From contig JAJZFA010000003.1 in the NCBI GenBank assembly GCA_021805565.1, positions 62,001 to 126,000 on the forward strand: 64,000 nucleotides of DNA, written 5' to 3'. Under the pieces are notes generated by a model. It saw only the letters and a list, made by a program, of their open reading frames with translations, had not been told where the DNA came from and searched no databases. Below are positions 7,324-63,249 of this stretch, one piece after another; position 1 is the first letter of the stretch, and each line of letters begins with the position of its first letter. A program made the translations under genes and the position numbers. Source of the DNA: Pseudomonadota bacterium. GTDB lineage: Bacteria; Pseudomonadota; Alphaproteobacteria; Acetobacterales; Acetobacteraceae.

Positions 7324-8169
7324 TTACCGGTCCGCTTTACCCGCCGACAGCTCGCCTGCCAGCGGTGCGTGGTTTAGCAACGCGGCCAGAATGGTACCTC
7401 CCGCTGCATTGCCCAGCAATGTCGGGATAAAGAACCGCGTCAGATAATCGCCGATGGTTGCATGACCGGTGAAGACGCCGAATGCGGCCTCCACCGATCC
7501 GGCGACGATATGCGGAAACTGGCAAATGGCGATAAGATAGGTTAGCAGGATTATAATCAGCGGACGGCTTGTACGCGCGGATGGCAGCAGCCAGACCATC
7601 AGCCCGATCAGCCAGCCTGCCGATCCTCCGGTTATCGCTGTGTGCCAGAATGGGCCCTCCAGCGCATGGCCGGACAGGTCCGCCATGGCCTGCATGGTCG
7701 ATCCGGGAAAAATGCCCGGCTGAGCGGCGATAGCGGCGAAAACCCAGGTGGCGGCGATGTTCGCGGCCAAAACGACGGTCCAGACCCGCAAAGTCAGTAA
7801 AACCGTATGCAGGTTCCGCCGTGTCAGGGCGGGGATCAGCGCGGTCAATGTGGTTTCGGTAAAAAGCTGCTGGCGCCCCAGGATAACGATCAAAAATCCG
7901 ACCGAATAGCCGAAACCGGAAACGAGCGGACGCCATGGCGTGTCGGGCAGACGCGCCTGCACGGTTGCCTGCGCCAGGAATGAAAAGCCGATGGACAGGC
8001 CGGCGGCGATCCCCGACCAGATCAGCCCGTTCAGGGAACGATCGAGTTCTTCCTCGCCCTGCGCCCGGATGATTTCGTGAATGACCAGCGGGCCCATCGG
8101 GGCGCCGGCCGCCGCCTGGCGCTGCTCTTTCCGGTCCAGATGGGGGGAGTTTTCTCCGGCTTCGCTCAT
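7324..8169 (-). CDS. formate/nitrite transporter (FNT) family membrane protein
   Basis: A 281-residue membrane protein with six predicted hydrophobic segments and the FNT signature region (LFTETTLTAL, then GNAAGG near the C-terminus). The charged N-terminus (SEAGENSPHLDRKEQRQ) resembles the YfdC branch. I chose the ATG at 8169, preceded by GAAGCGAG, over the ORF-track start at 8238. FNT channels conduct small monovalent anions such as formate. A formate dehydrogenase operon lies about 4 kb away on the other strand, but there is no direct operon link, so the substrate is unproven. Confidence 0.85.
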   Translation of the reverse strand: MSEAGENSPHLDRKEQRQAAAGAPMGPLVIHEIIRAQGEEELDRSLNGLIWSGIAAGLSIGFSFLAQATVQARLPDTPWRPLVSGFGYSVGFLIVILGRQQLFTETTLTALIPALTRRNLHTVLLTLRVWTVVLAANIAATWVFAAIAAQPGIFPGSTMQAMADLSGHALEGPFWHTAITGGSAGWLIGLMVWLLPSARTSRPLIIILLTYLIAICQFPHIVAGSVEAAFGVFTGHATIGDYLTRFFIPTLLGNAAGGTILAALLNHAPLAGELSAGKADR

Positions 8170-28629: not shown

Positions 28630-30021
28630 ATGGCATCGCGGGATGGCGCCCTGGCGCGCGCACTGACAGGCTTCGACACCGGCGGATTCCGCGACCGGCT
28701 CGCGGCCCTGGTCGCGATTCCCAGCACGTCGCAGGACCCCGCTCACGCTGGCGACGTACGCCGATATCTGACGGACGCAATCCAGCCGTGGCTGCGCCGT
28801 ATGGGCTTCACGGCGGAAATCCATCCAAATCCGGAACCTGGATTCGGCCCTATCCTATTCGCCGAACGGCTGGAAGGTCCCGATCGCCCCACAATTTTAA
28901 CATACGCACATGGCGACACCGTGCTCGGCCTGGATGAACAGTGGCGCCCCGGCCTATCCCCGTGGACGCTGACCGAGGACGCGGGTCGCTGGTACGGCCG
29001 CGGTTCGGCGGACAACAAAGGCCAGCACGCGCTTAATCTGACCGCGCTGGACGCCGTGCTGGCCGAACGCGACAACGCGCTGGGGTTCAACCTGAAAATG
29101 ATCCTGGAAACCAGCGAGGAACGCGGTTCGGCCGGCTTGCGGGCCTTCGTCGCCGCTCAGGCGGACCGATTGGCGGCCGATGTGCTGATCGCCAGCGACG
29201 GCCCCCGGGCGATGCCGGACCTGCCCACCATCGCCACCGGCACCCGCGGCACCTACCATTTCGATCTGGTGGTATCTTTGCGGCCGGGCGGCGTCCACTC
29301 CGGCCACTGGGGCGGCCTGACAACGGACCCGGCGATCGTCCTGAGCCACGCGCTGGCATCGGCGATGGACCGGCACGGCAAAATTTTGGTACGCGACTGG
29401 CTACCCGCGAACGGCGTGCCGGCGGCGATCCGCGCGGTGCTGAATGGCTGCCAGGCCGGCGGTGGCGGCGAAGCGGCCAGCATCGACCCGGACTGGGGCG
29501 AACCGGGTTTGACACCGGCCGAGAAAATCTATGGCTGGAACAGCTTCATCATACTGGCACTGCTGTCCGGCCAGCCGGCCAACCCGGTTAACGCCGTGGC
29601 CCCGGACGCCCGCGCCCATTGCCAGATACGCTATACGACCGACAGCGATCCAGCCGGCTTCGAGGCGGCCCTGCGCCGGCATCTGGACAGCAACGATTTC
29701 CACGCCGTGCGCATCGAAAACGCCGGTGTCCGCATGCCGGCCAGCCGCACAGATCCTGGCCATCCATGGGTTCGCTGGGCTGCCGCCAGCATGGAAAAAA
29801 CGCTGCACACGCACGTCCAGATCATTCCCAATTCGTCCGGCGGGCTGCCGGGGGATGTGTTTGTGGATTACCTCGGTGTGCCGCTGGTATGGATCCCGCA
29901 CAGCTACAACGGCTGCCAGCAGCATGGCCCCAACGAACACCTGCCGATTGCATCCGCCAGGGAGGGTCTGGCTGCCTTCGCGGGCCTGTGGTGGGACCTG
30001 GGCGAACCGGGCACGCCGTAA
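28630..30021 (+). CDS. M20 family metallopeptidase (dipeptidase/ArgE-like)
   Basis: A 463-residue zinc peptidase of clan MH. The metal series is visible: TYAHGDTVLG (His, Asp), GRGSADNKGQ (bridging Asp), ETSEERGS (catalytic Glu) and SDGPRAMPD. The middle insert is the lid/dimerisation domain. Members cleave dipeptides or N-acyl amino acids; the substrate is not evident. The TAA stop codon overlaps the start of a dispersed repeat, so the last residues of the protein may have been set by insertion of that element. Confidence 0.85.
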   Translation: MASRDGALARALTGFDTGGFRDRLAALVAIPSTSQDPAHAGDVRRYLTDAIQPWLRRMGFTAEIHPNPEPGFGPILFAERLEGPDRPTILTYAHGDTVLGLDEQWRPGLSPWTLTEDAGRWYGRGSADNKGQHALNLTALDAVLAERDNALGFNLKMILETSEERGSAGLRAFVAAQADRLAADVLIASDGPRAMPDLPTIATGTRGTYHFDLVVSLRPGGVHSGHWGGLTTDPAIVLSHALASAMDRHGKILVRDWLPANGVPAAIRAVLNGCQAGGGGEAASIDPDWGEPGLTPAEKIYGWNSFIILALLSGQPANPVNAVAPDARAHCQIRYTTDSDPAGFEAALRRHLDSNDFHAVRIENAGVRMPASRTDPGHPWVRWAAASMEKTLHTHVQIIPNSSGGLPGDVFVDYLGVPLVWIPHSYNGCQQHGPNEHLPIASAREGLAAFAGLWWDLGEPGTP

Positions 30022-30134
30022 GGCAACGCTGGCAAATAAGTGCGTCGGCACGCCAGCAAAGTTGCCGTGCAAAACCTGAGCTTGGGGATTGCCCGACGCT
30101 GCCGCTCGTAGCGATTATTGTAGAGCAATTCCTG
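30019..30134 (+). repeat. dispersed double-hairpin repeat family A, copy 1
   Basis: About 117 bases with close relatives at 47108, 61992 (reverse) and 63133. The first hairpin (30022-30066) has arms GGCAACGCTGGC and GCCAGC-AAA-GTTGCC around GTGCGTCGGCAC, which is itself a small hairpin. The second is bounded by ATTGC...GCAAT. It starts at the stop codon of the M20 peptidase gene and fills the gap to the convergent dehydrogenase gene. Confidence 0.8.
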
Positions 30135-47107: not shown

Positions 47108-47223
47108 TAAGGCAACGCTGGCAAATAAATGCGTCGGGACGCCAGAAAATTTGCCCTATAAAACATTAGCTTAGAGCCTGCTCGACGCTGGCGTTTCTAG
47201 CGGTTATTGTCGAGCAAGTCCTA
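47108..47223 (+). repeat. dispersed double-hairpin repeat family A, copy 2
   Basis: Same element as at 30019, 61992 and 63133. The second hairpin is clear here: GCTCGAC and GTCGAGC arms around a loop containing AGCGG. The first hairpin is partly degraded (GCCAGAAAATTTGCC for GCCAGCAAAGTTGCC). It lies between hisG and aat, 135 bases from the aat stop. Confidence 0.8.
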
Positions 47224-60269: not shown

Positions 60270-61385
60270 CTAACTCGCCGGCCGGTGCGAGCCGCGATCC
60301 GAGACCGTCCGGGTAAACCGTTCGGTTTCCGCGGCAATTTGGTCGCCGGCCATCAGCAGATTGCCGCCAATCAGCAGCATGGTATCATCGCCGTAAAAAT
60401 CGAGAATCTCTCCTGTCCGCTCCAGCGTCATCCCGCCTGCCGGCACCGGCAGCGCGGCGCGCATGCCGTCGCCGGTGCCACGTGCCCTGTCGGCGAGGCG
60501 GCCGCAGGTTTCGCGCGCGTAGCCGAACCGGCCGCCGAAACTGGGAAAAATGACCGCATCGGCGCCCATCAGCCGGAACAGGGTGCCGATCAGCAGATCC
60601 GGCGCGATCCGGGCCGCCCCGCCCATGCTGGGATGGGCAAAAAACGCCATATCGGGAAAATCGCGCACCAGTGCCTGCATCGCTGGAAACCCGCAGATCA
60701 TCGGGGCCAGCATCGCGCAATCGAGACCCAGCGACCGCGCCAGCCGCGCCTGCGCCCTCAACGCGTCCAGATCGCCGGTCAGGCTTGGGACATACCGTGT
60801 CGGATGCCCGGTGGACCGTGCCCCGCAGGCCACCGCTTCGGCGCAGGCGGCAACCCGGCCGGCGAAGGGCGAATAGGCCTGGTCGGCCAATCCGTGATCG
60901 TCCTTGATGAAATCCAGCCCACCGAGCGCAAGTTGCCCGGCGAGGTGCGCCAGTTTTTCCGGCGGTAACCCTTGCGGCTTCAGCGCCGACCCGGTCATTG
61001 CCCGCCCGGAGGCGTTCAACCGGGACCGCAGCGCCGCGAGTCCGTGTCGCGGGCCGCCGAACAACCGGACCAGGGAGTCCGGCACCGCGATGTCGTGCAG
61101 CGCCACGTCGTTGTGCAGGGATGTATTGCCGAACACCATGTTCAGCAATTGCCCGGCGTCTTGCCCGGCGGTTGCGATCGCCAAACCGATTCGGACAGCG
61201 AACACACCGTCGCCCACGTCGCCGATGCCTTCGACCGCGCCCACGATGTCCGACAGGACGGTTTCATCGGCGATCGCCGCCAGCGGCATTTCGACGCTCT
61301 GCTCGACCGCGATCCCCCGAGCCCTGGCTTCGATTTCGGTGGCCGGACACCGGACATGATAGGTGACAGTGAAGCGCCCGGTCAT
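60270..61385 (-). CDS. RuBisCO-like protein (form IV)
   Basis: A 371-residue member of the RuBisCO large-chain family, shorter than true RuBisCO (about 460). The active-site strand reads GGLDFIKDDHGLAD: the carbamylated-lysine and aspartate positions are kept, but glutamate of KDDE is histidine. The loop corresponding to KPKLG is LKPQGLP, and LIGGNLL replaces the phosphate-binding GGG loop. These changes rule out normal CO2 fixation. RuBisCO-like proteins act in methionine salvage or in apionate/isoapionate catabolism. The ATG at 61385 overlaps the stop of an upstream CoA-ligase remnant (ATGA). Confidence 0.85.
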   Translation of the reverse strand: MTGRFTVTYHVRCPATEIEARARGIAVEQSVEMPLAAIADETVLSDIVGAVEGIGDVGDGVFAVRIGLAIATAGQDAGQLLNMVFGNTSLHNDVALHDIAVPDSLVRLFGGPRHGLAALRSRLNASGRAMTGSALKPQGLPPEKLAHLAGQLALGGLDFIKDDHGLADQAYSPFAGRVAACAEAVACGARSTGHPTRYVPSLTGDLDALRAQARLARSLGLDCAMLAPMICGFPAMQALVRDFPDMAFFAHPSMGGAARIAPDLLIGTLFRLMGADAVIFPSFGGRFGYARETCGRLADRARGTGDGMRAALPVPAGGMTLERTGEILDFYGDDTMLLIGGNLLMAGDQIAAETERFTRTVSDRGSHRPAS

Positions 61386-61704
61386 GGCGATGCGATCGCC
61401 AGGGCATCGACGGCGATGGCGCTTGGCGGCCCCAGCATAACAGGGTTGACATCGATCGCCTGCAAGCCGCTGCCCAGCGATCGCGCGGCGAATTGCAGGC
61501 TTATCGGCAGATCGGCGAACGCCTGGGCGGCACCGGGGTATGTCCGGCGCGGACTGGCCAGCACGCGGCCGAGGCTGCCGTTTGCAAGGGCGGTCCCGGC
61601 GAACGACCGCTTGACTTGCAGCGGGACAGCGACGCCGACGACAGCCACCGCGCGCGGATGAAACAACGCATAAAGTGCCTGCTGCTGGGCGATCTGGGCG
61701 GGCA
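61382..61704 (-). pseudogene. ADP-forming acyl-CoA synthetase, internally deleted remnant
   Basis: A 107-codon frame (MPAQIAQQQ start) joins two ends of a protein that is normally about 700 residues. The first part has LFHPRAVAVVGV, the CoA-binding-domain start. The last part has LGSGLQAIDVNPVM and AIAVDALAI, the C-terminus of the ATP-grasp half. The ligase middle is missing, so an in-frame deletion is likely. The stop overlaps the RuBisCO-like start by 4 nt, which shows the two were one operon. A functional mini-protein is unlikely. Confidence 0.65.
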
Positions 61705-61879
61705 TCCGGCGGTGGCTCCTGTCCGGTAAGCGGGCGCGCATTTTGTCCATCGCCGGTTGCGATGTCCATCCGGTGGACGGTGGGCCGCCGGATGGCCGAG
61801 GCGGATTGCCTCGCCCCGGCGGCTTCGCGTTTCCAGGCAAGCGCCGTATTCCGGAGCCGATTGAGCAAGCAAGCGAGCC

Positions 61880-61991
61880 ATGAGCGAAGCCGCGCCGGTT
61901 TTGCTGTACGAGATGCGCGGTCACATCCTGATTTTGAGCATCGGCCATCCCGGACGTATGAGCGCTTTGTCGCCCGAACGATCCGATGCCG
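61880..61991 (+). pseudogene. enoyl-CoA hydratase/isomerase N-terminal stub
   Basis: From the ATG at 61880, MSEAAPVLLYEMRGHILILSI...RMSALSPE matches the first strand-turn-strand of the crotonase family. After about 35 codons the frame runs directly into repeat family A copy 3, where similarity ends. The remaining 220 or so residues of the family are not found downstream. It looks truncated by insertion or deletion linked to the repeat. Confidence 0.55.
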
Positions 61992-62106
61992 CTAAGCCCA
62001 TGCGCAACAATTATCGCTTCGGATCGCGGTGTCAGGCATGCCCTAAGCTCATGTTTTGCTCGGCAACTTTGCTGGCGTGCTGACGCACTTATTTGCCAGC
62101 GTTGTC
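61992..62106 (-). repeat. dispersed double-hairpin repeat family A, copy 3 (reverse orientation)
   Basis: The reverse complement reads CAACGCTGGCAAATAAGTGC..., matching copies 1, 2 and 4 closely over the first half; the second half is more diverged. It cuts the enoyl-CoA hydratase stub. Confidence 0.75.
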
Positions 62107-62459
62107 TGACCTGGGCGTTCGTCGAGGCCGGAGCGGACCCAGAGATGCGGGCGAGCGTGCTTGAAGCCCGTACAGCCGCGCGGATCGGGTGGAGAGGGAT
62201 CGCGCGTCTATCGAAAAACAGAAGCCGGCGAAAAACAGAAGCCGGCGAAAAACAGAAGCCGGTTTGGCGAGGAGTTTGAGGCAGGCCATTGGAGAAATCC
62301 GGCGCCACGGTTTTGGTCAATCGGATGAAATCTCCAAATTCGCCAAATTTCCTGTTGCGCCGCAGGAACTGGAAGCCCAACATTAACGCAAGTTTATCGT
62401 TAAAATGACGTAGGCTGGTCGGCTCGCGACATTGATCGCGTTGACATATGCTTGCCTGA
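62107..62459. other. non-coding stretch with a tandem repeat
   Basis: About 350 bases with no recognisable gene. It contains a 17-base tandem repeat (separate entry) and an AT-richer stretch before the next gene that may hold its promoter. Confidence 0.5.
62212..62262 (+). repeat. tandem repeat, 3 copies of 17 bases
   Basis: Three exact head-to-tail copies of CGAAAAACAGAAGCCGG with no spacers. Not CRISPR-like. Possible replication slippage site. Confidence 0.9.
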
Positions 62460-62471
62460 ATGGAGTTGACC

Positions 62472-62867
62472 GTGAAATATCTACCCCCATTCGAAGCGGT
62501 TGAATCGCTGCTCACGATATCGACCGTCAAGGGCGAGCGGATGGTCAGTTGCACCTATGAAAACATGGTGCAGATGCTGCGGCGAATAATCATTGGGGTT
62601 GAGGTCGATGAAGCCTGGTATCTGGAAACCTACCCCGACATCGCCGAAGCGATCGAAAAAGGGGTTGTCAAATCTGCTCGGTTACATTTCGTAAACGACG
62701 GCTATTTCGAGGGGCGCCTGCCCTTCCCCATTCAGGTCGATGAACGCTATTATCTGGCGACCAATGCAGGTGTGGCCGACTACGTGCGCAAGGGCATGCT
62801 AACCTCCGGTCAGCAGCATTTCGAGGACAACGGCTACAAGGAAGGTCGTCTGCCGTTCGGGTTATAA
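62472..62867 (+). CDS. small protein with two tandem 45-residue repeats, function unknown
   Basis: A protein of 131 residues (135 from the ATG at 62460). Two similar units are visible: VDEAWYLETYPDIAEAIEKG...HFVNDGYFEGRLPF, then VDERYYLATNAGVADYVRKG...HFEDNGYKEGRLPF. Each has the WYLxxYPD-like pattern often seen attached to glycosyltransferases and surface-polysaccharide proteins; here it stands alone. I prefer the GTG at 62472, with GGAG at good spacing, over the ATG at 62460. Function and partner are not readable. Confidence 0.7.
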   Translation: MKYLPPFEAVESLLTISTVKGERMVSCTYENMVQMLRRIIIGVEVDEAWYLETYPDIAEAIEKGVVKSARLHFVNDGYFEGRLPFPIQVDERYYLATNAGVADYVRKGMLTSGQQHFEDNGYKEGRLPFGL

Positions 62868-63132: not shown

Positions 63133-63249
63133 TAAGGCGACGCTGGCAAATAAGTGCGTCGGCACGCCAGCAAAGTTGTCTTGCAAAATATGAGCTTACG
63201 GGTTGCTCGACGTTGCCGCTTGTAGCACTTATTTTCGAGCAAGCCCTAG
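63133..63249 (+). repeat. dispersed double-hairpin repeat family A, copy 4
   Basis: Closest to copies 1 and 2. Both hairpins are well kept: GCTGGC/GCCAGC in the first and TTGCTCGA/TCGAGCAA in the second. Confidence 0.8.

Follow-up and report, generated by a model that had tools for sequence, protein, structure and literature searches.

The RuBisCO-like protein (RLP) gene in the window, the 64,000-nucleotide stretch of Acetobacteraceae DNA that we analyzed, very probably encodes a working DeepYkr-type 5-methylthioribulose-1-phosphate (MTRu-1P) 1,3-isomerase of the MTA-isoprenoid shunt; the two genes upstream of it, for an ADP-forming acyl-CoA synthetase (ACS) and an enoyl-CoA hydratase (ECH), have decayed, and its cupin partner has been separated from it. 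The observations that support this explanation are the placement of the RLP in its clade, the linkage of RLP and cupin across the family, the other shunt genes in the host, purifying selection on the RLP, the remnants of its neighbors, and the retention of the ACS start region. The locus contains the following features:

60270–61385, minus strand: RLP, DeepYkr-type, predicted MTRu-1P 1,3-isomerase (371-codon ORF, Pfam, structure match, tree)
60894–60905, minus strand: KDDH motif, RLP residues 161–164, at the K201, D202, D203 and E204 positions of RuBisCO (alignment with form I and other RLPs)
61382–61705, minus strand: ACS remnant, a 107-codon in-frame ORF whose TGA overlaps the RLP ATG (comparison with intact ACS)
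61706–61765, minus strand: conserved ACS leader with a GGAG-type ribosome site (alignable to intact ACS leaders)
61880–61990, plus strand: ECH remnant, residues 1–37 (64% identity)
61992–62107, plus strand: dispersed 116-bp repeat, MITE-like, in the ECH gene after about codon 37 (genome matches)
62108–62273, plus strand: remaining ECH pieces (about residues 38–58 and 237–262), with a large internal deletion and a local duplication (alignment to relatives)

The RLP reading frame encodes 371 aa without internal stops and matches Pfam RuBisCO_large (E=3.4e-21). Its best match among solved structures is PDB 3qfw, which we take to be an R. palustris protein, with 366 bits over 364 residues; the next match reaches 140 bits. 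We built a tree from the window RLP, 26 relatives, 3qfw, six other RLPs in the PDB (MtnW-type, Photo, and NonPhoto), and true RuBisCOs. A single clade with SH-aLRT 100 unites the window RLP with its relatives and 3qfw. Its sister is the YkrW/MtnW group (SH-aLRT 96), and it is separate from the Photo, NonPhoto, and form I proteins. The deeper branching order is less secure than this clade, since the tree contains some long branches that come together. Together with the cupin linkage described below and the match to 3qfw, this position suggests that the window RLP is of the DeepYkr type, beside the YkrW/MtnW enolases.

Three other identities were considered and rejected. The RLP scores 157.5 and 111.9 bits against NCBIfam equivalogs for MtnW with cut-offs of 409 and 513.6, and it carries KDDH, not KDDE. 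Against the equivalog for the apionate enzyme OiaX (3-oxo-isoapionate-4-phosphate decarboxylase) it scores 57.9 bits, with a cut-off of 700. It is not a true RuBisCO of forms I–III, having KDDH, a Gln at the K177 position, no GKLEG motif (with the loop-6 Lys), and a separate clade. The window genome has its own form I RuBisCO besides the RLP.

An earlier, sequence-only reading of this DNA took KDDH in place of KDDE to imply altered chemistry. The His is invariant in 81 of 81 family sequences (one relative has KEDH) and is also found in 3qfw; KDDH is therefore not a sign of altered chemistry, and the family to which the clade and the cupin point has a described reaction. The window RLP shows no departure from the conserved columns in this 81-sequence comparison. 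Of the six search patterns used to collect the family, one contained KDDHG and so favors KDDH members; KDDHG was absent from the remaining five, and the search turned up no KDDE members. The motif marks the RLP family to which the methylthioribulose-phosphate isomerases belong. With KDDH as a family mark, a protein that looked like an RLP of unknown chemistry is now settled.

The pairing of RLP and cupin distinguishes the MTA-isoprenoid shunt, which was tested in R. palustris and R. rubrum: the DeepYkr RLP carries out the 1,3-isomerization of MTRu-1P, and the cupin frees the methylthio group, leaving 1-deoxyxylulose-5-phosphate (PMC5893883, PMC4958253). For R. palustris RLP1, a conversion rate of close to 1 per second has been reported (PMC5893883). 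In our collection of 80 family loci, a few of them cut by contig ends, 79 have a same-strand cupin gene directly 3' of the RLP; the remaining contig stops at the RLP. The window locus lacks this cupin, an absence that the sequence-only reading overlooked; the host cupin, on contig C30, shares 80% identity with a relative's cupin. In relative L003, an enolase gene lies ~2 kb downstream of the cupin, and in the window genome the enolase and the relocated cupin lie ~9 kb apart in the same orientation, while the gene upstream of the locus (62460–62867) stayed with the RLP. The simplest reading is that a rearrangement split the RLP from the cupin. That upstream gene, on the plus strand, encodes a conserved ~135-aa protein with no Pfam match and adjoins the locus in several relatives as well.

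The host genome also encodes MtnP, MtnA, and two O-acetylhomoserine (OAH) sulfhydrylases above family cut-offs, so that the shunt set of MtnP, MtnA, RLP, cupin, and OAH sulfhydrylase is complete in one genome. A search of the host genome for acireductone dioxygenase (ARD/MtnD) gave no match, and we therefore found no canonical salvage via MtnD. On the proposed route, MTA would be phosphorolysed by MtnP and then isomerized by MtnA to MTRu-1P, which the RLP would convert to 1-methylthioxylulose-5-phosphate. The cupin methylsulfurylase, now encoded on another contig, would free the methylthio group and yield 1-deoxyxylulose-5-phosphate for isoprenoid synthesis, and OAH sulfhydrylase would recapture the methanethiol to make methionine.

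The RLP is under purifying selection. In a branch model of ten sequences, omega is 0.12 on the window branch, part of which predates the loss of the neighbors, compared to 0.076 elsewhere; the difference is not significant (2dlnL 3.3). An omega of 1 on the window RLP branch is rejected (2dlnL 45).

Upstream, the RLP ATG overlaps the TGA of the preceding frame in an ATGA (61382–61385), as the sequence-only reading had noted, and this frame is indeed an ACS that has lost its middle: an in-frame join of its first ~25 and last ~80 codons gives the 107-codon ORF, which starts MPAQIAQQQALYALFHPRAVAVVG and ends LQAIDVNPVMLGPPSAIAVDALAIASP. The N-terminal part reads MPAQIA...ALFHPRAVAVVG, and the retained end is 60–61% identical to residues 600–676 of the intact ACS in relatives. 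Pairwise dN/dS for the remnant is 0.28–0.61, compared to 0.18–0.26 among intact copies. The ECH stub seen next to it is likewise real, with pieces at 61880–62273 on the plus strand covering residues 1–37, about 38–58, and 237–262, the rest being missing. Because intact, syntenic ECH(-)/ACS(+)-RLP(+) arrangements occur at the same place in relatives, the ACS and ECH pieces in the window are remnants and not chance matches.

The ECH gene is interrupted by a 116-bp repeat that the first reading also missed. The repeat has about 45 matches in the genome, most of them 82–95% identical, including further matches in the window at 30018–30127, 47110–47181, and 63140–63201; other copies are flanked by TNA duplications, which are typical of IS1031-group elements. 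This pattern suggests that the repeat is a MITE-like element. Within the ECH remnant, 62210–62260 (plus strand) holds a tandem duplication of a TTCGCCGGCTTCTGTTTTTCG-like unit (minus-strand reading).

The sequence-only reading found an operon linking an RLP to CoA ligation unfamiliar and proposed looking for intact versions in related genomes. We found 27 loci with an intact ACS-RLP pair and overlapping stop and start (ATGA, once GTGA), a few of the ACS copies being cut by contig ends; as far as the loci could be matched to genomes of our same-genus search, all belong to the genus of the window. The ACS is ~680 codons long with CoA_binding, Succ_CoA_lig, and ATP-grasp_5 domains; Acidisphaera sp. 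S103 is one relative that has it intact. Upstream of the ACS, 20 of the 27 loci carry a divergent ECH; only L019 clearly departs from this pattern, the contigs of the others being too short to tell. Screened at strict E-values, 200 genomes of the order yielded no ACS homolog outside the genus, and across 385 genomes of the class the best match reached about 36% identity. With no close homolog outside the genus at these E-values, other neighborhoods gave no clue to what the ACS does. In the open-licence literature, we found no text tying an RLP of the DeepYkr kind to an acyl-CoA synthetase; searches on 3QFW returned unrelated papers only, and those on FerA-type synthetases returned nothing. The ACS-RLP-cupin operon is apparently undescribed. 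This genus-level operon is real, but the RLP itself belongs to a characterized family and, as far as sequence can say, has the known chemistry of that family.

Within the genus, five genomes lack the ACS: the window genome, Rhodopila globiformis (L016, with an N-terminal remnant), L010, L012, and L014. RLP and cupin persist in all five, and in four of them (the window genome, L010, L012, and L014) the ACS start region is kept before the RLP. The window retains the ACS leader, start codon, ~25 codons, last 80 codons, and ATGA junction in frame; L014 has the ACS down to nine codons (MPAQIAAVS*) ending in ATGA; and L010 and L012 have the ACS start region fused straight to the RLP. The RLP 5' end lies at 8001 in each of L010, L012, and L014. 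The GGAG-type leader is alignable in these four, less clearly in L012. In contrast, the R. globiformis remnant is out of its original frame.

In an rpoB tree, the window genome is nested among ACS-bearing genomes (support 95), and the ACS was therefore probably lost at least twice. A single loss in one ACS-less clade is disfavored by this tree (AU test, p 0.028); the RLP tree does not resolve the question. Losses that kept the RLP translated may have been favored, an argument that rests on the repetition, because one in-frame join on its own would arise by chance one time in three. The genus thus offers a case of an upstream gene removed more than once with its translation start kept before the next gene. 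Form I RuBisCO, found via the RLP query, occurs only in the five ACS-less genomes (G000, G006, G008, G024, and G029) out of the 33 genomes of the genus that were searched; this pattern is only a pointer, reflecting about two independent events. Two further loci are worth recording. The window genome has a second ACS whose middle was lost in frame (G000:C32:57346-57996, L181; 233-aa frame), with a CaiB-type CoA transferase as its neighbor. Rhodopila globiformis has a further RLP of the NonPhoto type (G029:C217:32000-35000, L174; best PDB 3nwr), along with its DeepYkr RLP, a Photo-type RLP, and form I RuBisCO.

We infer the following order for the build-up and decay of the operon. In an ancestor within the genus, the ACS, with the divergent ECH, would have come to head the RLP-cupin operon, with the ACS stop lying over the RLP start. 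In the window lineage, ECH would have decayed by the mobile repeat and a large deletion, the ACS by an in-frame deletion, and a rearrangement would have split the cupin from the RLP. The retained ACS leader, start codon, and overlapping stop probably still serve translation of the RLP through translational coupling.

Other explanations have to be weighed against a working shunt enzyme beside decayed neighbors. If the ACS, ECH, and RLP acted on one substrate in an acyl-CoA pathway, the genus would have new, possibly CoA-linked chemistry with KDDH as its mark; the stop/start overlap retained in 27 loci and an ACS subfamily found only in this genus, beside the RLP, would fit such a pathway. The rest of the family, however, has the RLP with KDDH and a cupin but no ACS, RLP and cupin outlast the ACS within the genus, and the genus RLPs differ from other members at zero conserved columns. 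This makes such an acyl-CoA pathway with new RLP chemistry very unlikely. A view of the RLP as left over from a CoA pathway is not supported either: elsewhere in the family it sits with a cupin and no ACS, purifying selection on it persists in the absence of the ACS, and the rest of the shunt is encoded in the host. The sequence-only reading had named two findings that would refute it, and we made both: relatives without any CoA-ligase neighbor exist, and the phylogeny puts the RLP in a characterized clade with a different context. The observation of that reading is confirmed, and its interpretation, although partly supported, is mostly wrong.

Even less probable is that the RLP is a relic on its way out after the operon collapsed. 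In favor of a relic are two broken upstream genes, a cupin no longer next to the RLP, and a slightly raised omega on the window branch; against it stand a full-length frame with all conserved residues, the rejection of omega=1, and a host with the other shunt genes and no match in the MtnD search. We give the least credence to the truncated ACS and ECH being assembly artifacts, a suspicion that a draft assembly in 64 contigs and the in-frame ACS join might raise, but the retained ACS end has diverged in both identity and dN/dS, ECH was broken separately by the repeat and a deletion, and four other genomes of the genus lack the ACS at the corresponding spot.

With the RLP taken as a shunt isomerase, it is conceivable, though improbable, that the ACS and ECH of the genus share its sulfur metabolism, for example with a methylthio acid being converted to a CoA thioester and hydrated with release of methanethiol, as in the methylmercaptopropionate branch. 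If so, one operon would supply methanethiol for methionine synthesis from two sources, and lineages without ACS and ECH would retain the MTA branch only.

Compared to known systems, the ACS of the genus resembles the characterized ADP-forming acyl-CoA synthetases (acetate-, 3-hydroxypropionate-, and 4-hydroxybutyrate-CoA ligases; DddX, PDB 7cm9) in type, with CoA_binding, Succ_CoA_lig, and ATP-grasp_5 domains, but it falls well below every equivalog cut-off (e.g., 322 of 1200 bits). The YkrW/MtnW DK-MTP-1P enolases (PDB 2oek, 3fk4) are the nearest other RLP clade; they have KDDE, whereas the window RLP has KDDH and, at 157 bits, lies below the equivalog cut-off of 409. PDB 3qfw, deposited as a RuBisCO large subunit, shares KDDH and is nested in the same clade, although it is farther from the window RLP than the Acetobacteraceae members are. 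The closest system is the DeepYkr RLP and cupin of the shunt (R. rubrum Rru_A1998/Rru_A2000; R. palustris RLP1 RPA2169/RPA2170): the window RLP is likewise sister to YkrW, its relatives likewise have the cupin beside the RLP, and its host likewise has mtnP, mtnA, and OAH sulfhydrylase. In contrast to that system, an ACS precedes the RLP in the genus of the window, and the window genome has this ACS in collapsed form and the cupin on a different contig.
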